A stretch of 64,000 nt of DNA, from assembly GCA_029570205.1 (NCBI GenBank), contig JAKQSI010000042.1, forward strand, positions 1-64,000, in the 5' to 3' direction. This DNA comes from Candidatus Omnitrophota bacterium (GTDB lineage: Bacteria > Hinthialibacterota > Hinthialibacteria > Hinthialibacterales > JAKPRU01). The translations under genes and the position numbers were made by a program. This document shows, piece after piece, positions 1-50,983 of the stretch (positions are counted from its first letter, which is position 1; every line of letters starts with the position of its first letter). The notes under the pieces are model-generated. The model saw only the letters and a program-made list of their open reading frames with translations. It did not search any database and had not been told where the DNA came from.

Positions 1-40
1 CCAGGATTTCGGACACCTGAGATTCTTCACATTCAACCAT

Positions 41-236
41 AGTAGGCCAGGCGTCTCTGCCTGGTAGTAGGCCAGGCGTCTCTGCCTGGTAGTAGGCCAG
101 GCGTCTCTGCCTGGTAGTAGGCCAGGCGTCTCTGCCTGGTAGTAGGCCAGGCGTCCCTGCCTGGAGTAGGCCAGGCGTCCCTGCCTGGAGTAGGCCAGGC
201 GTCCCTGCCTGGAGTAGGCCAGGCGTCCCTGCCTGG
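41..236. repeat. Tandem palindromic repeat array, 8 units
   Basis: Eight head-to-tail units, each holding the inverted repeat CCAGGC-GTCTCT-GCCTGG or its variant with loop GTCCCT. The first four units (41-140) are 25 bp with loop GTCTCT. The last four (141-236) are 24 bp with loop GTCCCT and lack the joining T. There are no unique spacers, so this is not a CRISPR array. Each unit could form a six-pair hairpin in RNA or single-stranded DNA. It sits just upstream of the gene at 258. The block structure (four of one type, then four of the other) suggests growth by local duplication. Confidence 0.95.
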
Positions 237-2664: not shown

Positions 2665-3349
2665 TCACTTCCATACCCCCATCCTCTCCACCGTCTGCTG
2701 TACCTCACTCAGCTTCACGCACGAAAAACAGCCCCCCTTCTCCTCTTTCACACACCGCTCCACCAACTCCTTCCCTACCTTCTCGAATTCCTCCTTATGA
2801 CTCCGACGCAGCGTCTTCAAAAATCGCCGCATCACTCTCACAAAAATCTCCCCCCGATGCAAATGACGCATGTTCGACCGGATCAACGTACTGTCCAAAC
2901 GCTGCTCCCCCCGTCTCCACCTCAAACACTGCCAACAACCGATCCGTCAATCGCTCAAATATCACCCGGTCCAACCCCAACTCCACCATCCTCTTCCGAT
3001 ACCCCTGTACCGTCCGCTCACACACATACTTGTCCGCATTGCTCTCCCACCGAATGTCCAACGCATAATGCCACCGCGCATCAAACGCCAACGCCGACAC
3101 CACCTCCCGATCCGTCAGGTCCAGCATCTGTTGCAGCGCCACCACCCCCACCATCGTGTACAACTCTTTCGTCGGACGGCCCTGCTTCGCATCAAAACAC
3201 AACCGGCCCTGTTCGATCGGCAGCCACTCCAGCAACTCTCCCCGAACTATTCCCGGCCACCCCTTCGCCAACATCTTCTTCCGCTTCTCTCCCAGAAACT
3301 GCCATTCATCAAACAAATACGACGTCGCTCGATCTCGAATCCGTTGCAC
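2665..3349 (-). pseudogene. Broken IS1182-type transposase, N-terminal part
   Basis: Two overlapping reading frames together encode the N-terminal half of an IS1182/IS5-like transposase (InsH-type domain). The first part (3349 down to about 2910) carries EWLPIEQGRLCFDAKQGRPT, the TDREVVSALAFDARWHYAL region and YVCERTVQGYRKRM. The second (about 2910 to 2665) continues with QRLDSTLIRSNMRHLHRGE, typical of the family directly after that point. They are offset by one base at a run of six C (2907-2912, G on the coding strand), so one inserted base explains the break. The catalytic DDE C-terminal part is missing, so the copy is inactive. The upstream spacer has an unusual long-pyrimidine composition on the + strand. 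Confidence 0.8.
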
Positions 3350-3524
3350 GATTCATCCCTCAACTTGCTGATTATATTACACTTAATATAACATACACCC
3401 CTCCAAAAATCACCCTCTTCCCCCTCCTTTTTCTCCATTCCCTCTATAATTCCTTCTCACCCTCCCCCGCCGACTTTTTGCCGGGGCGTCATTCTTGCAG
3501 AGGGGGGCTGGGGGTAACGAAAAC
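3350..3524. other. Spacer upstream of the transposase remnant
   Basis: Pyrimidine-rich spacer with no gene. It contains a perfect 8-bp inverted repeat TTATATTA-CACT-TAATATAA at 3372-3391, just upstream (minus strand) of the transposase start, which could be part of the original insertion sequence promoter or end. No clear terminal inverted repeat was identified. Confidence 0.35.
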
Positions 3525-4088
3525 CTAATACGGCGGGGCAATAAATCGCGCGATAGCCCCATGGCTGATCAGCCCATTACTGGCCGCATAAAACGGCATT
3601 CCGGTTTCATAGCGCAGCGTCGGCCCGTGGCCGGAGAAAACTCCGATACTGCTGACCGCCTGCGCAAAAAGCCCCGGATTGTTCGGCATCCCGGCCATGA
3701 ACACCCTGGCCTGAAACTCCGAGAGAATGGGATCGAAATGGAAACAATACTGCCCATGCGAAACCTCTTCCGGCTGTCGTCCCTCCTGAAATCGGTCCCG
3801 AAGCGCATGGGGAAGGTAAGCGACCGGCGTAGTAAACGGGATTTGCTGGTAACACCCGTTCGCATGATGCCCGATGGCCGTTCTGCTGTTGCCGGGGGAG
3901 AGTCCGGAATCGAGAATATAAGTCTTGAACGCCATATCAATGGACCGCAGGGAACTCTCTGAATAGGCGATTTTCGATCGGATCTGGGCATTCATAAAAT
4001 TCGGGATTGCAATTGCCGCCAGGATACCGATGATCGCCACTACGATCAGCAATTCAATCAGCGTAAATCCGGATTTGCCTTTCCTCAT
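3525..4088 (-). CDS. Prepilin-type N-terminal domain protein (pseudopilin-like)
   Basis: 187 residues from the ATG at 4088, preferred because AAGGAG lies at proper distance and the start gives a short Lys/Arg leader (MRKGKSG) before the prepilin peptidase site G/FTLIELLI. The leader is followed by one hydrophobic helix ending AIPNFMNAQIRSK, the class III (type IV pilin/type II secretion) signal with Glu5. The remaining 150 residues are the exported head: a helix with YSESSLRSIDMAFKTYI, then FTTPVAYLP, a feature shared with the prepilin-like proteins at 16545 and 26129 (TSPISYI, TSPIAYI). No secretion apparatus genes are adjacent. It is divergent from the FAH-family gene. Likely a minor pilin or surface protein that uses the cell's type IV pilus/type II machinery. 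Confidence 0.88.
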   Translation of the reverse strand: MRKGKSGFTLIELLIVVAIIGILAAIAIPNFMNAQIRSKIAYSESSLRSIDMAFKTYILDSGLSPGNSRTAIGHHANGCYQQIPFTTPVAYLPHALRDRFQEGRQPEEVSHGQYCFHFDPILSEFQARVFMAGMPNNPGLFAQAVSSIGVFSGHGPTLRYETGMPFYAASNGLISHGAIARFIAPPY

Positions 4089-4180
4089 CTTCAGGACTCC
4101 TTGTTTTGTTCCTTGTGCGCATGACTCGTTTGACCTATCATCTTTTGCACCTGCTTTTTCCCGAATAGGAGACACCTGCG

Positions 4181-5038
4181 ATGAGAACACTTGCCGAACA
4201 CTTATTATTGTACCTCTCTCTATCCATGTTTTCTATCGGAGTTCTTTTCTGCCCGGATGGATGGTGCGAAGAAAAGCCCATTGTCAAGTTTGCCCGGTTC
4301 CAGATGGGTGACGAGATTTCTTACGGAATTGTTGAGAACGACACAATTCACTGCATTTCCGGCGACCCGTTCGGTGAATGGAAGAAAACAGGGAAGACCT
4401 GCTCTCTGGCGGAGGTCGCGCTGCTGGCGCCGTGCGTTCCGCAGAAGATCCTCGCCCTTGCGGGGAATTTCGAAAGCCACTTGGGAACGATCCCCAAACC
4501 CGAACACCCGGAGGCATTCTTCAAGGTTCCGACGGTTCTGATCCCGCACGAGGGAACAATCCGCATTCCGCCCGGTGCAGGGCGTGTAGATGCAGAGGCG
4601 GAAATGGTGCTGGTGATCGGAAAGCGGGCGAAGAATGTCGCGCCGGAGGAGGCGTTGCAGCATGTTCTGGGAGTGACCTGCGGCAATGATGTCAGCGCAC
4701 GGGATTGGCAGAAAAACGACCGGCAGTGGTGGCGGGCCAAGGGTACGGACACATTCGGGCCGTGCGGTCCGTTTATCGTCTCGGGACTGGACTATGACAA
4801 CCTGCTGGTGCGAGGCCGAGTCAACGGCGAGGTAAAACAGGAACAACGCACGAATGAACTGATCCACGATGTCTCTACAATTGTCAGCTGGCTCAGCTAT
4901 CATGTCACCCTGGAACCGGGAGACCTCATTTTCACCGGCACACCCGGAACGACACCCCAAATCCGCCCCGGCGATATCGTCGAGGTGGAAGTCGAGGGGG
5001 TGGGCGTGTTGAGGAATACGGTGGCCGTGGGGCCTTGA
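4181..5038 (+). CDS. Fumarylacetoacetate hydrolase family protein, apparently exported
   Basis: 285 residues. Residues about 45-285 are an FAH-family fold (C-C bond hydrolases, isomerases and decarboxylases of 2-oxo acids). Visible are ILALAGNFESHLG, the metal-binding region DAEAEMVLVIGKRAKNV, GNDVSARDWQ, KGTDTFGPCGPFIV and the end block GDLIFTGTPGTTP. The first 30 residues form a signal-peptide-like leader (short charged start, long hydrophobic core, C-E-E-K after it), unusual because the family is normally cytosolic. The ATG follows ATAGGAGACA, supporting this start. The gene is divergent from a prepilin-like gene and precedes a membrane glycosyltransferase by 66 bp. Substrate unknown. Confidence 0.88.
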   Translation: MRTLAEHLLLYLSLSMFSIGVLFCPDGWCEEKPIVKFARFQMGDEISYGIVENDTIHCISGDPFGEWKKTGKTCSLAEVALLAPCVPQKILALAGNFESHLGTIPKPEHPEAFFKVPTVLIPHEGTIRIPPGAGRVDAEAEMVLVIGKRAKNVAPEEALQHVLGVTCGNDVSARDWQKNDRQWWRAKGTDTFGPCGPFIVSGLDYDNLLVRGRVNGEVKQEQRTNELIHDVSTIVSWLSYHVTLEPGDLIFTGTPGTTPQIRPGDIVEVEVEGVGVLRNTVAVGP

Positions 5039-10850: not shown

Positions 10851-11120
10851 ATGAAAACAGCGTGTACAGGAATGTTATTCGATTTTCAACCGTTGCAGAA
10901 GCGGGAAGTGGTGGCTTCCTTTGATGGGGGAACGATCAGGTCGGACGCAGGCGGGCTGCTGTTGCGGGAGGTGGAGCAGCGGTGTGGGATTCTCCGGCAG
11001 TTCAGCGAGTGTTTTCGGGATTTGCGGGATACGGAACGGATCGAACACACAGCAGTTGTATTTGTTTGCGGATCGGACAAGTTCGCATGAGATGTGGGCG
11101 AACCGGACCCGTCTTTTGAC
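10851..11120 (+). pseudogene. Internally deleted IS1380 transposase
   Basis: The first 66 residues (10851 to about 11046) match the N-terminus of IS1380 transposases: KREVVASFDGGTIRSDAGGL, LLREVEQRCG, and DLRDTERIEH. Right after RIEH the sequence jumps, in another frame (from about 11050), to QQLYLFADRTSSHEMWANRT. That is the C-terminal IS1380 signature (LFADRTS...RANQLRLW). The whole catalytic middle, several hundred residues, is missing and the joint is out of frame. The product cannot be active. It lies 58 bp upstream of the FAD oxidoreductase start. Confidence 0.75.
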
Positions 11121-11178
11121 CCGCCCCCGTGATGTTTTACCTGTCAACATACGGGTAATGCTGATATTCTCTTTTATT

Positions 11179-12564
11179 ATGGCACAAACCATCGCAATCA
11201 TCGGGGCCGGGGTGACCGGCCTGGGAGCGGCGTACCGGATTCGCCAGGAGTCGCCGGATTCCCGTCTGCTCGTTTTTGAGCGGGATGAAATGATCGGCGG
11301 CATGGCGAAAACCCTCGAGTGGGAAGGCTGTCGGCTCGATCTGGGTCCCCACCGTTTCTACACGGAAATCGCCGGTATTGAGCCGTTTGTCCGCAAATTG
11401 TGTTCGAATTGCTTTGTGCCTGTTCGACGACGAAGCCGGATGCGGCTGCGCAATAAACTCATTCGGTATCCAGTCAGTCCCCTGGAGGTCGTGAATGTTC
11501 TGGGGGTCGGCTCATCCTTCGGAATTGCCTGGTCTTCGATCCGCCATCTGGTCTCTGGAAAACAATCTTCTGTAATTACCTATAACGACTATATTTGCAA
11601 TAGATTCGGTGACAGACTGTATGAACTATTATTCGGACCGTACGCGCGGAAAGTCTGGGGCTGCGATCCATCAGACCTGGAGGCGGAAACCGCCATTGTC
11701 CGCCTTCGCGGGGATACAATCTGGCAGTCTCTGCTGGATGCAGTACGGGGCAAAGGAAGCAGTTTCGTTTCGACTTTCCTGTATCCCACAGGTGGTATCG
11801 GTCAGATTTCCCGGAATCTGGCAGCGTGTCTCAAGGAGAGCGAACTGATCCTCAATACGGGTGAAGTTTTCCCCGTCGTTGAGAACGGCAAATGTACTGG
11901 TGTGAGGAACCGGCAGGGCGAATCATGGAAAACAGATACCGTCCTCTCCACAATTCCTCTACCGGATCTGACAAGGTCGGTTTTCGACCCCGAATCGTCA
12001 GTCTGTCTCTCCGCAAAGGCGTTAACATTTCGAGGGCTGGTACTGTTGTTTCTCCTCTATGAAAAGGACCTTGCGATTCGGGATACCTGGCTCTATTTCC
12101 CCGAACCGGAGATCCCGTTCACGCGCCTGAGTGTTCCGAAAAACTTCCACCCGGACAATGTACCTTCCGGCAAGACCGTGATCTGCCTGGAGTTTCCGTG
12201 CGAGCCGGGGGATACGATCTATCAAGCAGGGGAATCCGAGCTTCGTTCCATTGCGGATGAATATCTGCGCCGAATCGGCTTGGCGGACTGTAGCGCCACA
12301 GCGGGATTGGTGGTGCGGCTTCGCGAGGGATATCCGGTTTACCGGGTTGGATATCGGAGTCATTTCAATTCGATCATTTCCGCGCTGAAAACCATCCCGA
12401 ACTTGATCACAGCGGGAAGACAGGGGCTTTTCCGGCACAACAATATGGATCAGGCCATTCAAATGGGACTGATTGCGGGAGAACAGATTGTCCGTTCGCC
12501 GAACGGCAGCACGGAATGGTACGATGGCCTCTCGCGCTTTGAGGGATACCGAATTGTTGACTGA
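11179..12564 (+). CDS. NAD(P)/FAD-dependent amine-oxidase-like oxidoreductase
   Basis: 461 residues. The N-terminus holds the dinucleotide-binding signature IAIIGAGVTGLGAAYRI (G9, G11, G14), then E/D contacts and GGMAKTLEWEG. LDLGPHRFYTE is typical of a protoporphyrinogen-oxidase/UDP-galactopyranose-mutase-like family found in surface polysaccharide clusters. LFGPYARKVWGCDPSDLEAE and the C-terminal FAD block NLITAGRQGLFRHNNMDQAI complete the family pattern. I chose the ATG at 11179 because it directly precedes the Rossmann strand; an upstream ATG at 11158 is possible. The open frame upstream is transposase remnant. It is followed after 12 bp by a radical SAM gene, so they are probably co-transcribed. 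Confidence 0.85.
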   Translation: MAQTIAIIGAGVTGLGAAYRIRQESPDSRLLVFERDEMIGGMAKTLEWEGCRLDLGPHRFYTEIAGIEPFVRKLCSNCFVPVRRRSRMRLRNKLIRYPVSPLEVVNVLGVGSSFGIAWSSIRHLVSGKQSSVITYNDYICNRFGDRLYELLFGPYARKVWGCDPSDLEAETAIVRLRGDTIWQSLLDAVRGKGSSFVSTFLYPTGGIGQISRNLAACLKESELILNTGEVFPVVENGKCTGVRNRQGESWKTDTVLSTIPLPDLTRSVFDPESSVCLSAKALTFRGLVLLFLLYEKDLAIRDTWLYFPEPEIPFTRLSVPKNFHPDNVPSGKTVICLEFPCEPGDTIYQAGESELRSIADEYLRRIGLADCSATAGLVVRLREGYPVYRVGYRSHFNSIISALKTIPNLITAGRQGLFRHNNMDQAIQMGLIAGEQIVRSPNGSTEWYDGLSRFEGYRIVD

Positions 12565-12576
12565 GGAAATGCAAGA

Positions 12577-13992
12577 GTGTGGAACAAAGCGCTTCTGATT
12601 GTGCCGGCGACCGGCAAATATATCCGTGAGGAACGGTGCCAGACTCCCCTCGAGGAGATGCACACCATTGCTCTACGCCCTCCCATGGATCTTTTATATC
12701 TGGCCGGTTCGCTGGAAAGCGCCGGTGTGGAATGCCGAATTCGGGACTACCCGGCGCTGGGGGAATCCTGGGATGCGCTTCGGCAGGAGTTGCAAGAGTT
12801 CCATCCAAATGCGCTCATCCTTTCGGTTACCACGCCGACCCTGGAAGAGGATCTGAAAGCCGCCATCGTTGCAAAAGAGATCGACCCGTCAATCTGCACC
12901 ATCACCAAAGGTCCGCATTTCCATCGCCTGGACCTGGATGCCCTAAGAAGCTACCCCGCGCTGGACATTATCATGCGCGGCGAATACGAGGAAACTATTG
13001 TCGAGCTGGCACAAGAACATCCCTTGCCGGAAATCGCCGGTATCTCCTATCGCAAACAGGGAGAGCCTGTGCGAAATGCAGATCGTCCGTTTGTGGACGA
13101 CTTGGATCGCATTCCGTTTCCGGCTCGCCATCTAATCAATAACACTCTGTATTACCGTCCCGATACCGGGGCAGTCCAGACCACCATAGTCACCAGCCGG
13201 GGTTGTCCGTACCCGTGTATCTTCTGCCTGGCAGGAGAGGTATCCGGCAAAAAAGCGAGGGTCCGGTCGCCTCAAAATGTGCTGGCGGAGGTGAGAGAAT
13301 GTGTCCAGTGCCACGGCATCCGGGATTTCCTCTTTCGCTCCGATTTATTTACTTCTAACCGCCAGTGGGTACTAGACTTATGTAAGACAATTCAAGATTC
13401 AGGATTAAGCATTTCCTGGTCCTGCAACAGCCGGGTAGACACCATTGATACCCAAATGCTGGCTGCAATGAAACAAGCGGGGTGCTGGCTGATCGCATTC
13501 GGTGTGGAGAGCGGGAGCCGCGAGCTTCTTAAAAAAATGCGAAAAGCAACCGACCTGGAGACAGCCGAGAGGACACTTCGCCTGTGTCGGCAGGCCGGAA
13601 TCAAGTCCAGTGTTTATTTTGTGATCGGGCTGCCTTGGGAGACACGGGCGACTTATGAGGAATCCGTGGCATTCGCCAAACGTCTCGACCCCGATTTTCT
13701 GGAGGTTTTTTTCGCGTACCCGTTTCATGGGACGGAGTTCTATTCTATCGCTGTGCAGGAAGGACTTCTATCGGACGGAGAAATTCCACATGAAGGATAC
13801 AATCATCCCTCCATCCCGACGCTTTATCTCGACAAGCAGCAACTGGCCGGACTTCGGAAAGAGTTTCTGCGGTCGTTCTATCTGCGCCCGCGATTCATTT
13901 TCCGGACATTGTGGAATACAAAATCTCCAAGGGTCTTCTGGAATTACCTGGTTTATGGAAGCCGACAATTGGTAGACTTTTTAAAAGGGTGA
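12577..13992 (+). CDS. Radical SAM protein with B12-binding-like N-terminal domain
   Basis: 471 residues starting at a GTG, 12 bp after the oxidoreductase. Residues 1-150 resemble the Rossmann-type cobalamin-binding domain of class B radical SAM enzymes (PPMDLLYLAGSLESAG entry, then the FHPNALILSVTTPT strand). The usual cobalt-ligating D-x-H-x-x-G is not evident. The radical SAM core carries C210, C214, C217 in RGCPYPCIFC, then FGVESGSRELLKKMRK and IKSSVYFVIGLPWET. Such enzymes act on unactivated carbon (methylation, ring contraction, hydroxylation), often in lipid or natural-product pathways. The reaction is unknown. A 19-unit palindrome array separates it from a second radical SAM gene. Confidence 0.88.
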   Translation: MWNKALLIVPATGKYIREERCQTPLEEMHTIALRPPMDLLYLAGSLESAGVECRIRDYPALGESWDALRQELQEFHPNALILSVTTPTLEEDLKAAIVAKEIDPSICTITKGPHFHRLDLDALRSYPALDIIMRGEYEETIVELAQEHPLPEIAGISYRKQGEPVRNADRPFVDDLDRIPFPARHLINNTLYYRPDTGAVQTTIVTSRGCPYPCIFCLAGEVSGKKARVRSPQNVLAEVRECVQCHGIRDFLFRSDLFTSNRQWVLDLCKTIQDSGLSISWSCNSRVDTIDTQMLAAMKQAGCWLIAFGVESGSRELLKKMRKATDLETAERTLRLCRQAGIKSSVYFVIGLPWETRATYEESVAFAKRLDPDFLEVFFAYPFHGTEFYSIAVQEGLLSDGEIPHEGYNHPSIPTLYLDKQQLAGLRKEFLRSFYLRPRFIFRTLWNTKSPRVFWNYLVYGSRQLVDFLKG

Positions 13993-14016
13993 AGGATGAA
14001 TGAGGAAGGATGAAAT

Positions 14017-14036
14017 GACAAGCACGGAGGCCTGTC
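14017..14036. repeat. Leader hairpin of the palindrome array
   Basis: GACAAGC-ACGGAG-GCCTGTC, an imperfect 7-bp inverted repeat, followed by CCACCAGT and then the array. The same leader in perfect form (GACAGGC-ACAGAG-GCCTGTC) precedes a single array-type hairpin at 50791-50840. Confidence 0.75.
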
Positions 14037-14041
14037 CCACC

Positions 14042-14543
14042 AGTAGGCCAGGCGTCTCTGCCTGGTAGTAGGCCAGGCGTCCCTGCCTGGCAGTAGGCCA
14101 GGCGTCCCTGCCTGGCAGTAGGCCAGGCGTCCCTGCCTGGCAGTAGGCCAGGCGTCTCTGCCTGGTAGCAGGCCAGGCGTCCCTGCCTGGCAGTAGGCCA
14201 GGCGTCCCTGCCTGGCAGTAGGCCAGGCGTCCCTGCCTGGTACAGTAGGCCAGGCGTCTCTGCCTGGTAGCAGGCCAGGCGTCTCTGCCTGGCAATTGAT
14301 TTCAGTAGTAGGCCAGGCGTCCCTGCCTGGCAGTAGGCCAGGCGTCCCTGCCTGGCAGTAGGCCAGGCGTCTCTGCCTGGCAGTAGGCCAGGCGTCCCTG
14401 CCTGGCAATTGATTTCAGTAGGCCAGGCGTCTCTGCCTGGTAGTAGGCCAGGCGTCTCTGCCTGGTAGTAGGCCAGGCGTCTCTGCCTGGCAGTAGGCCA
14501 GGCGTCCCTGCCTGGTACAGTAGGCCAGGCGTCTCTGCCTGGC
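14042..14543. repeat. Tandem palindromic repeat array, 19 units
   Basis: Nineteen 25-bp units of AGTAGG-CCAGGC-GTCYCT-GCCTGG plus a T or C, the same unit as at 41-236. Two units begin AGCAGG. Loop type varies (GTCTCT or GTCCCT). The series is interrupted by AC after units 8 and 18, and by short AATTGATTTC-containing inserts after units 10 and 14, showing higher-order duplication. It fills the gap between two co-directional radical SAM genes and would be transcribed as a chain of hairpins. On the minus strand it reads through as an artificial open frame (QAGTPGLL-type repeats), which I do not consider a gene. Confidence 0.95.
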
Positions 14544-14562
14544 TGTCAGCGGAATACAAACC

Positions 14563-15993
14563 ATGCGCGTCTTACTATTAAATCCGCCTGCCGATCAGCC
14601 GTACCTGCGGGATTACTATTGCAGCCATTCGGCGAAGGCGAACTACTTCTGGCATCCCTATGACCTGCTGGTTCAAAGCGGATTCCTCTCGAACCGGCAT
14701 GAGGTCTTTGCATTAGATGCCAATGTATTGGGGCTGTCGTTCGATGCAGCGCGGCGACGGGTTGAGGACATCAAGCCGGAAGCCATTTTCCTCCTGACCG
14801 GCGCGGCCAGTTGGCGGAACGATTTCGCTTTTATGGACAGCCTGAATGTTCCTCCATCTATGCCCGTTGTTGCCACGGGGGACCTGATGCTCTCCAAGGG
14901 GGCAGAATACCTGGAGCGAACACCCTGGCTCACAGCAGTGTTGCAGGATTTCACCGTGGATACCGTTGCGACCTACCTGGCCCTTTGGGACCCAAACCGG
15001 CGCGGCCCGCACTATGATGTTGAATTGCCTCATTTGCAGTATCGCACGGGCAATGAAATCCATCAGGGTCCACGCCCACGGGAAAGCCGCTTCACACTGC
15101 CGCTCCCCCGTGTCGATCTGTTCCCGATGAACCGATATCGCATCCCGCACGGGAAATACCGTCATTTCTGGTCTACATTGACCGATTTCGGATGTCCATT
15201 CCATTGCAGTTTCTGTGTAAGCGGAACACTGCCTTACAAAACACGCGATCCGGACAATGTGATGCGGGAACTTCGCTACGCCCGCGACTTGGGATACAGG
15301 GAACTATGGGTGAAAGATGTCACCTTCGGGGTGAATCGAAAACACACCCAGGAATTCCTGCACCTGTTAGCGAAGGAGAATCTCGGATTCTCCTGGGTGG
15401 CGCTGTCGCGGGTGGATGTGGTCAACGAGGAATTGCTGGAGCGGATGGCGCGGACTGGATGCCATACCATTCAGCTCGGTGTGGAATCGGCGGATGAATC
15501 CATCCTCCGGACGATCGACAAGCAGATCAGTCCCCAACGAGTGAAGCAGATTTTCGCTCTCTGCCGACGGTTGGGGATACGGACATTGGCGCACTTCATT
15601 ATCGGTCTGCCGGGAGAAACAGAAGAAAGCGCACAGCGGACCATTGAATTTGCCAAGGAACTGGAGCCGGATTTTGCCTCGTTCAACATCGCTACACCCA
15701 AAGTAGGAACTCCCTTGCGCGCACAGGCCATTGAGAAAGGCTGGACAGATGCCGAGGTGGATACGCTGGATAATTCCACTGCGTTTCCATCCATGGAGAT
15801 CGGATCGCTTTCCTCTCAGCGGGTGTGGGAGTTGCGGAACCGGGCGATCCGCGAGTTTCACCTGCGACCGCGATACCTGGTGCGTAAAACATTGGGCGTG
15901 CGCTCGGTGTGGGAGTTGTCCCGGTCCATCCAAAACGCGATAGCGCTTCTGCGCTCCACGCGTGGCTCTCCCAAAGGTGGAGAATCCCTGTAA
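14563..15993 (+). CDS. Radical SAM protein with B12-binding-like N-terminal domain, second copy
   Basis: 476 residues, a paralogue-like relative of the gene at 12577. The N-terminus begins MRVLLLNPPADQPYLRDYYC, the standard opening of B12-binding radical SAM proteins, with no obvious His ligand for cobalt. The iron-sulfur motif is C211, C215, C218 in FGCPFHCSFC, followed by YRELWVKDVTFGVN, LGVESADESILRTIDK and LAHFIIGLPGET. The C-terminal tail (LRPRYLVRKTLGVRSVWEL) resembles that of the partner protein (LRPRFIFRTLWN), supporting a related function. It starts 20 bp after the 19-unit array. A sequential or paired reaction with its neighbour is an inference from context. Confidence 0.88.
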   Translation: MRVLLLNPPADQPYLRDYYCSHSAKANYFWHPYDLLVQSGFLSNRHEVFALDANVLGLSFDAARRRVEDIKPEAIFLLTGAASWRNDFAFMDSLNVPPSMPVVATGDLMLSKGAEYLERTPWLTAVLQDFTVDTVATYLALWDPNRRGPHYDVELPHLQYRTGNEIHQGPRPRESRFTLPLPRVDLFPMNRYRIPHGKYRHFWSTLTDFGCPFHCSFCVSGTLPYKTRDPDNVMRELRYARDLGYRELWVKDVTFGVNRKHTQEFLHLLAKENLGFSWVALSRVDVVNEELLERMARTGCHTIQLGVESADESILRTIDKQISPQRVKQIFALCRRLGIRTLAHFIIGLPGETEESAQRTIEFAKELEPDFASFNIATPKVGTPLRAQAIEKGWTDAEVDTLDNSTAFPSMEIGSLSSQRVWELRNRAIREFHLRPRYLVRKTLGVRSVWELSRSIQNAIALLRSTRGSPKGGESL

Positions 15994-16105
15994 GCCGTGT
16001 CTGTACGCTGTCTTGAAGAAAGTCGACCGTCTCCCCTTCCGTTCGAGAAAGGGTTGAGGTGAGGGGATGCTGTGACCCAGCTGTGACCGACCTTGTCACC
16101 TTGTC

Positions 16106-16415: not shown

Positions 16416-16544
16416 TTTCTTCTTTTCTTTGATTCATATCGCCCTTCCCTTTGACTTCCACCGTTTAAAAAATAATATCGTTTGGTTGAAAATGAGGCTA
16501 TTTTGTGTAGCCAGGAGTGTATTATATCCCATGGAGGATGTCCA

Positions 16545-17159
16545 ATGCGTCGCGCTTTCACACTGATTGAACTGCTGATTGTGGTGGCTATTATCGGGAT
16601 TCTCGCGGCGATCGCCGTGCCGAATTTCCTCAACGCCCGGGTCCGTGCAAAAGTTGCCAAGGTGGACTCGGATATGAACGCCCTCTCCAAGGCGCTGGAG
16701 ATGTATTTGCTTGACAACAATTCCTATCCGGGCGATCACGACCTGGATGAGTATACCGGGGCTCAGCGCGGGCTGTTTCGCCTCACCAGTCCAATCTCCT
16801 ACATTGCCTCTCTCCCCAGCGATCCCTTTATTGAAAAGACCTTAGCGACAACACTCGGGCTTGGGAACTCAAATGCCTATGCTTCAAACGGCCGGCCGGA
16901 CTACGAATTGGGCTCCGGCGCCGACAACGGTGGCACGCAAAAAGTACAGGCCTACAGCCTGATGAGCTACGGTCCGGATTACTTAGATGACAATGCCAAC
17001 CATGATTCTTTCCCGTTTGGAACGGATATGGATCGCTACAGTCCGACCAATGGCATCCGCTCCCCCGGCAACATTTTCAAGTTTGGCGGTGATTATATGG
17101 CGGGTTGTATTATCCTGGATTGGGGCAAGGAACTTCTTGGAAGCAAGTGCGGGGGATAA
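16545..17159 (+). CDS. Prepilin-type N-terminal domain protein (pseudopilin-like)
   Basis: 204 residues from the ATG at 16545, chosen because GGAGGA lies 6 bp upstream and the start gives the minimal leader MRRA before FTLIELLIVVAIIGILAA. The mature helix continues AIAVPNFLNARVRAKVAKV, almost identical to the protein at 26129. The head has a helix (MNALSKALEMYLLDNNSYPG), then RLTSPISYIASLPSDPF, and a Gly/Asn/Asp-rich C-terminal part (GPDYLDDNANHD region) that might bind calcium. It probably enters a type IV pilus or type II pseudopilus, or is a pilin-like surface protein. There are no neighbouring secretion genes. Confidence 0.88.
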   Translation: MRRAFTLIELLIVVAIIGILAAIAVPNFLNARVRAKVAKVDSDMNALSKALEMYLLDNNSYPGDHDLDEYTGAQRGLFRLTSPISYIASLPSDPFIEKTLATTLGLGNSNAYASNGRPDYELGSGADNGGTQKVQAYSLMSYGPDYLDDNANHDSFPFGTDMDRYSPTNGIRSPGNIFKFGGDYMAGCIILDWGKELLGSKCGG

Positions 17160-50688: not shown

Positions 50689-50790
50689 TACGTCGTGTGT
50701 CCTTTGTGGCCTTGCCTGTGTAGAAAATGTTGTTTCATTTTCGCCATGGAACCGGGAGATTGCAATGCCGACCGAGATGGGCTGCCCATC

Positions 50791-50840
50791 GACAGGCACA
50801 GAGGCCTGTCCCACCAGTGGGTCAGGCGTCTCTGCCTGAC
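50791..50840. repeat. Two-hairpin element related to the palindrome arrays
   Basis: First hairpin GACAGGC-ACAGAG-GCCTGTC (50791-50810), then CCACCAGTGG, then GTCAGGC-GTCTCT-GCCTGAC (50821-50840). The first matches the leader of the 19-unit array and the second is a variant of its unit. It appears to be a monomeric form. Confidence 0.8.
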
Positions 50841-50900
50841 AAAGAAGGGCGGGATGGGCACGATGTCGGCAGATCTTTGGTGGGCCACCCCTTCGCAGCA

Positions 50901-50983
50901 TAGGGTGGGCTCAAGCCCGTCTGCGGGCTAGCCCACCATAACTGAGCGTGGTGGGCTACCGCTTCGCGCTTGAGCCTACCCTA
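50901..50983. repeat. Nested inverted repeat, GGGTGGGCTCAAGC type
   Basis: Outer arms TAGGGTGGGCTCAAGC (50901-50916) and GCTTGAGCCTACCCTA (50968-50983) match with one mismatch. Inside, GGCTAGCCCACC and GGTGGGCTACC form a second pair. An extra GGTGGGCCACC lies at about 50879. It resembles a palindromic interspersed element. Confidence 0.75.

Follow-up and report, generated by a model that had tools for sequence, protein, structure and literature searches.

REPs of the GTAG super-family are hairpins with a 6–9 bp stem and the sequence GTAG, sometimes GTGG, directly 5' of it. They are extragenic, reach high copy numbers, form tail-tail pairs and clusters, and have been reported in PVC bacteria (Di Nocera et al. 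2013, PMC3733652). In Pseudomonas fluorescens, the dispersed unit is the REPIN, an inverted REP pair of fixed spacing with a RAYT gene adjacent and with tandem clusters (Bertels and Rainey 2011, PMC3116915). The substrate of known TnpA-REP enzymes is the GTAG hairpin in single-stranded form; they bind it and cleave beside it, either at CT or at both CT and CA (PMC8266576). The BIME-2 elements of E. coli are multi-copy REP clusters between genes in which the orientation of the REPs alternates.

We analysed an array of hairpins in the window, i.e. the whole stretch of 64,000 bp taken from the source genome (G000), and compared it with two congeners (G001 and G002). We are highly confident that the array is a copy of a GTAG-type REP found only in this genus, which a RAYT (TnpA-REP) with its gene elsewhere in the genome moved in trans, and that this copy was then amplified by head-to-tail multiplication of its B unit. 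The coordinates are collected in Table 1.

Table 1. Repeat units, linkers and neighbouring genes in the window
Feature	Position	Strand	Detail
FAD-dependent amine-oxidase-like gene	10921..12564	+	12 bp upstream of rSAM1
rSAM1, B12-binding radical SAM protein	12577..13992	+	upstream of array
Inverted A-type REP unit	14018..14040	-	partner of B unit 1; hairpin 14018-14035, tag GTGGG at 14036-14040 (read on - strand)
19 head-to-tail B-type REP units	14043..14542	+	GTAGG/GCAGG + CCAGGCGTCYCTGCCTGG
B hairpin starts, units 1-10	14048, 14073, 14098, 14123, 14148, 14173, 14198, 14223, 14250, 14275	+	
B hairpin starts, units 11-19	14313, 14338, 14363, 14388, 14423, 14448, 14473, 14498, 14525	+	
Longer linker CAATTGATTTCAGTA	14293..14307	+	after unit 10
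Longer linker CAATTGATTTCA	14406..14417	+	after unit 14
rSAM2, radical SAM protein	14563..15993	+	downstream of array
Second array, 8 B units, same family	42..236	+	at contig start; array span about 40-238
Founder-type pair A-/B+ with conserved ends	50784..50854	.	hairpins 50792-50809 and 50822-50839

As originally predicted, 19 direct units, each CCAGGCGTC[C/T]CTGCCTGG, were found between 14048 and 14542 in the gap between two co-directional radical SAM genes. The start-to-start spacing was 25 bp, except for 27 bp after units 8 and 18, 38 bp after unit 10 and 35 bp after unit 14. The layout is that of a GTAG-type REP: a tag directly 5' of the hairpin (GTAGG in 17 of 19 units, GCAGG in units 6 and 10), followed by a hairpin whose stem is 7 bp (GCCAGGC/GCCTGGC) wherever C follows. 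The original prediction was right about the 25-bp units and about the AC and AATTGATTTC inserts, but its 6-bp stem was imprecise, the tag was overlooked and the insert after unit 10 carries three extra bases. It also left out the inverted A-type unit that opens the array, as well as the 8-unit array and the pair (50792–50839) in the same window. The opening unit is slightly degenerate, reads ACAAGCACGGAGGCCTGT on the + strand and lies 30 bp from B unit 1. The longest exact repeat within the 19 units was 74 bp (at 14092 and 14307), which makes block duplication plausible. Together with the repeated inserts, this supports the earlier proposal that duplication of segments, and not of single units alone, enlarged the array.

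A search of the 4.39-Mb genome for all copies, which had been suggested as a check, returned 365 hairpin matches, mostly extragenic, compared with 4 for a reversed-pattern control. We sampled 59 sites with 306 units; the G000 sites were picked by repeat match, and the sample is hence non-random. The regions drawn on in G000 were repeat-bearing stretches and the remainder of contig C1. Two hairpin types were present, B (CAGGCGTCYCTGCCTG) and A (CAGGCCTCYGTGCCTG), and 275 of the 306 units carried a GTAGG/GTGGG tag. The commonest type of site was a pair with the tags facing inward, with unit starts 30 bp apart in 46 of 52 such pairs, embedded in conserved ends (e.g. CGCCCATCG at the left end and CAAAGAAGGGCG at the right). 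Arrays open with the inverted partner, and one half of the pair, usually B, recurs head-to-tail in them; the period is 24–40 bp and typical of each site. The array under study can accordingly be written A-(B+)19. The linker CAGCTACCCA was common to several unrelated sites (e.g. L107, L108, L110 and L127); units of arrays may thus also move from one site to another.

Most sampled sites (53 of 59) fell outside the genes that a simple hexamer-based caller predicted. Where both neighbours could be seen, the genes were tandem at 16 sites, divergent at 12 and convergent at 11; the background of gaps ≥40 bp comprised 56 tandem, 21 divergent and 18 convergent gaps, and the proportions roughly match. 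With these near-background proportions and the dispersed copies, the radical SAM setting is one among many. The special tie to radical SAM genes that had been suggested is not supported, as the family occurs at dozens of unrelated, mostly extragenic sites. All the traits of a GTAG-type REP that were tested were found, i.e. a 5' tag on a palindrome, high dispersed copy number and a mainly extragenic location. An Rfam search gave no meaningful match (a single sub-threshold miRNA match). A CRISPR array was ruled out: the linkers are 2–15 bp long and repeated, without unique spacers. At 50901–50938 of the window, a 38-bp GGTGGGCTAGCCCACC-type hairpin repeat with many exact matches in both congeners was seen; it is a further dispersed repeat family.

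The family resembles the GTAG super-family (PMC3733652) in hairpin, tag, copy number, location, pairs and clusters, but its exact stem and loop pattern was confined to one genus among the 84,980 species scanned. As with REPINs (PMC3116915), an inverted pair of fixed spacing is the dispersed unit. REPIN clusters, however, repeat the whole pair (the largest has four pairs and one REP), whereas here one half is repeated, up to 19 times and in a single orientation. Like BIME-2, the array is a multi-copy REP cluster between genes; unlike in BIME-2, all 19 B units point one way after the inverted first unit.

In the all-species scan, the tagged unit turned up in no more than two further genomes, congener MAGs that are both titled Candidatus Omnitrophota, and 38 of 40 sampled relatives lacked the repeat. 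Arrays were present in G000 and G002. G001 had no large arrays; its 16 exact B copies each lay on a different contig, and its repeats were almost only singles and pairs. The difference in neighbour orientation between G001 and the array-bearing genomes had a Fisher p of about 2e-4, for three genomes and units that are not independent. That unit number varies among relatives was confirmed at the 50.8-kb site of the window: G000 has one pair, while G002 has at least 11 B units up to the contig end, beside a 94% identical flank. The rSAM1 orthologue of G002 (94% amino acid identity) is also followed by a B array, with 7 units up to the contig end and the A unit missing. Hence, unit number and make-up differ between species, and the missing A unit means that the arrays beside rSAM1 in G000 and G002 may stem from separate founder events.

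The original prediction had proposed looking for a RAYT-type transposase. Using the PF01797 and NF047646 profiles, we found such a gene on contig C89 of G000, flanked by the array's own repeat family: A arrays with B units on both sides. An orthologue with the same neighbour genes was found on contig C302 of G002, with A units and exact B units on its flanks. The NF047646 scores were 86.6 and 85.9 bits, respectively (cut-off 80), and the RAYT sequence featured an HVH motif and a Y-x-x-x-NP region. Tagged hairpins in the surroundings numbered 21 for the G000 gene and 6 for the G002 gene, compared with 0 for the reversed control. No RAYT was detected in G001, whose site is empty: only 245 bp, with no A or B repeat, separate the two neighbour genes there. 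Thus, in these three genomes, RAYT and arrays co-occur in two species and are both absent in the third. Two features of a REPtron, membership of the protein family and flanking by the same REPs, were found; in the REPtrons of E. coli, Stenotrophomonas and Marinomonas (PMC8266576), the HUH/Y1 transposase gene is likewise flanked by its own GTAG hairpins. CA, one of the dinucleotides at which known enzymes cut beside the hairpin, also flanks most B units here. The differences are that cleavage is predicted here and that the RAYT sequence is distant: the single, weak PDB match by sequence was 4er8, the structure of TnpA-REP from E. coli (E 0.03).

Further RAYT matches were seen. A second G000 RAYT (L017, contig C48, about 3320–4260; NF047646 96.8 bits) adjoins a tandem array built from another hairpin, AAGGCGGGAGCGTCAGCTCCCGCC. 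A two-piece, sub-cut-off match at 484–1011 of G000 contig C126 is possibly a degenerate copy. In other genera of the class, RAYT-like genes flanked by their own GTAG hairpins were found at L150 (G003), L153 (G011) and L157 (G007), so REPtrons seem common in the class.

The array would have begun with a founder A-/B+ pair, tags inward and starts 30 bp apart, that landed behind rSAM1. The B unit would then have multiplied head-to-tail, singly and in blocks, up to 19 copies, in one-sided growth. The RAYT probably binds these hairpins in single-stranded form and cuts them, perhaps at the CA on either side of most B units. The tandem copies might arise by strand transfer, by slippage or by recombination, and the latter two could explain arrays just as well once there is a first duplicate. 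It is a real possibility, if somewhat short of an even chance, that the array is a plain VNTR built by slippage and unequal recombination, and that the RAYT moved only the founder pair. The 74-bp identity and the repeated inserts, which indicate block duplication, argue for this, as does the variation of the period among array sites; however, independent slippage fails to explain the linker shared by unrelated sites, and arrays are found in the two species with a RAYT and not in the one without. Conversely, the RAYT itself may build the arrays, by cutting single-stranded units at the CA on either side and linking them in series (...GCCTGG-C|A-GTAGG...); one half of the pair would then be copied, always in the same direction. 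CA preceded the tag in 149 sampled B units and followed the hairpin in 172, and cutting at CA could therefore release or join single units. We regard this as unlikely. In the linkers, CA is the common dinucleotide, and no firm CT cleavage sites were found there. We know of no RAYT with demonstrated tandem-amplification activity of this kind.

Two other explanations were considered. One is that it regulates rSAM2 in cis, by tuning read-through, RNA decay or translation, with unit number under selection. The array lies in a co-directional gap and ends 20 bp ahead of the rSAM2 start codon, a B array also stands behind the G002 rSAM1 orthologue, and the array RNA folds strongly (z = -8.3). The minimum-energy fold mainly pairs neighbouring units in nested stems, so a transcript of the array would not necessarily carry the 19 successive hairpins that had been predicted. 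Intrinsic-terminator checks gave only loose, weak T-run matches after units 10 and 14 (a T-rich tail was otherwise absent), and no promoter-like site was found in the gap between the two radical SAM genes. The repeats also occur at dozens of unrelated sites, including convergent and divergent gaps, which weakens an operon-specific regulator, and rSAM2 has no close congener orthologue, so no conserved gene pairing is seen. We consider such regulation improbable; the array can be explained without tuning of rSAM2, and any effect on rSAM2 RNA is hypothetical and secondary. It is least credible that the array is an artefact of short-read metagenome assembly. Many contigs of G000 end within such arrays, and contigs C1, C2 and C5 have exactly 141 bp in common at their ends, an overlap length that suggests a short-read assembly with k=141; the contig names in both congeners begin with k141. 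However, the longest stretch shared with other sampled G000 arrays is also 74 bp, so the 141-mers are unique in the array and its path is unambiguous at k=141. Moreover, a separately assembled congener has an array at the same place. The actual unit number could differ between strains.

At the contig start, window positions 1–141 together with L027 (contig C2) and L025 (contig C5) show one left flank with about four B units that leads into two different right flanks (C1 and C2), with exactly 141 bp in common. Either strains differ by a rearrangement at a REP array, or a repeat was collapsed.

The repeats are best read as a new family within the known REP/RAYT kind, one in which head-to-tail amplification is strong, and the array itself is most readily viewed as a side effect of a repeat that is selfish or domesticated. 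The kind of element is already known; the head-to-tail multiplication of single REP units at many sites is unusual. In the literature searched, no publication joining Omnitrophota with REPs was found. The REP/RAYT family described here comes from a genus that bears the label Candidatus Omnitrophota and adds to those known. With three related species, two with a RAYT and one without, each site can be compared for founder pairs and one-sided arrays. This makes it possible to test by what route REPs form tandem arrays and whether RAYTs are the driving force.

The genes flanking the array plausibly form an operon. Close orthologues of rSAM2 were absent from both congeners, and in G001 none was found for either radical SAM gene. 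Homology of G001 to the region starts only at window position 16098, upstream of tRNA-Lys and tRNA-Glu. The amine-oxidase and radical SAM genes (10921–16098) may thus be a variable cassette beside tRNA genes. Further downstream, the start of a pseudopilin-like gene (16482–17159), at about 16543–16730, matched dozens of places in all three genomes; these matches represent a large family of prepilin-type N-termini.
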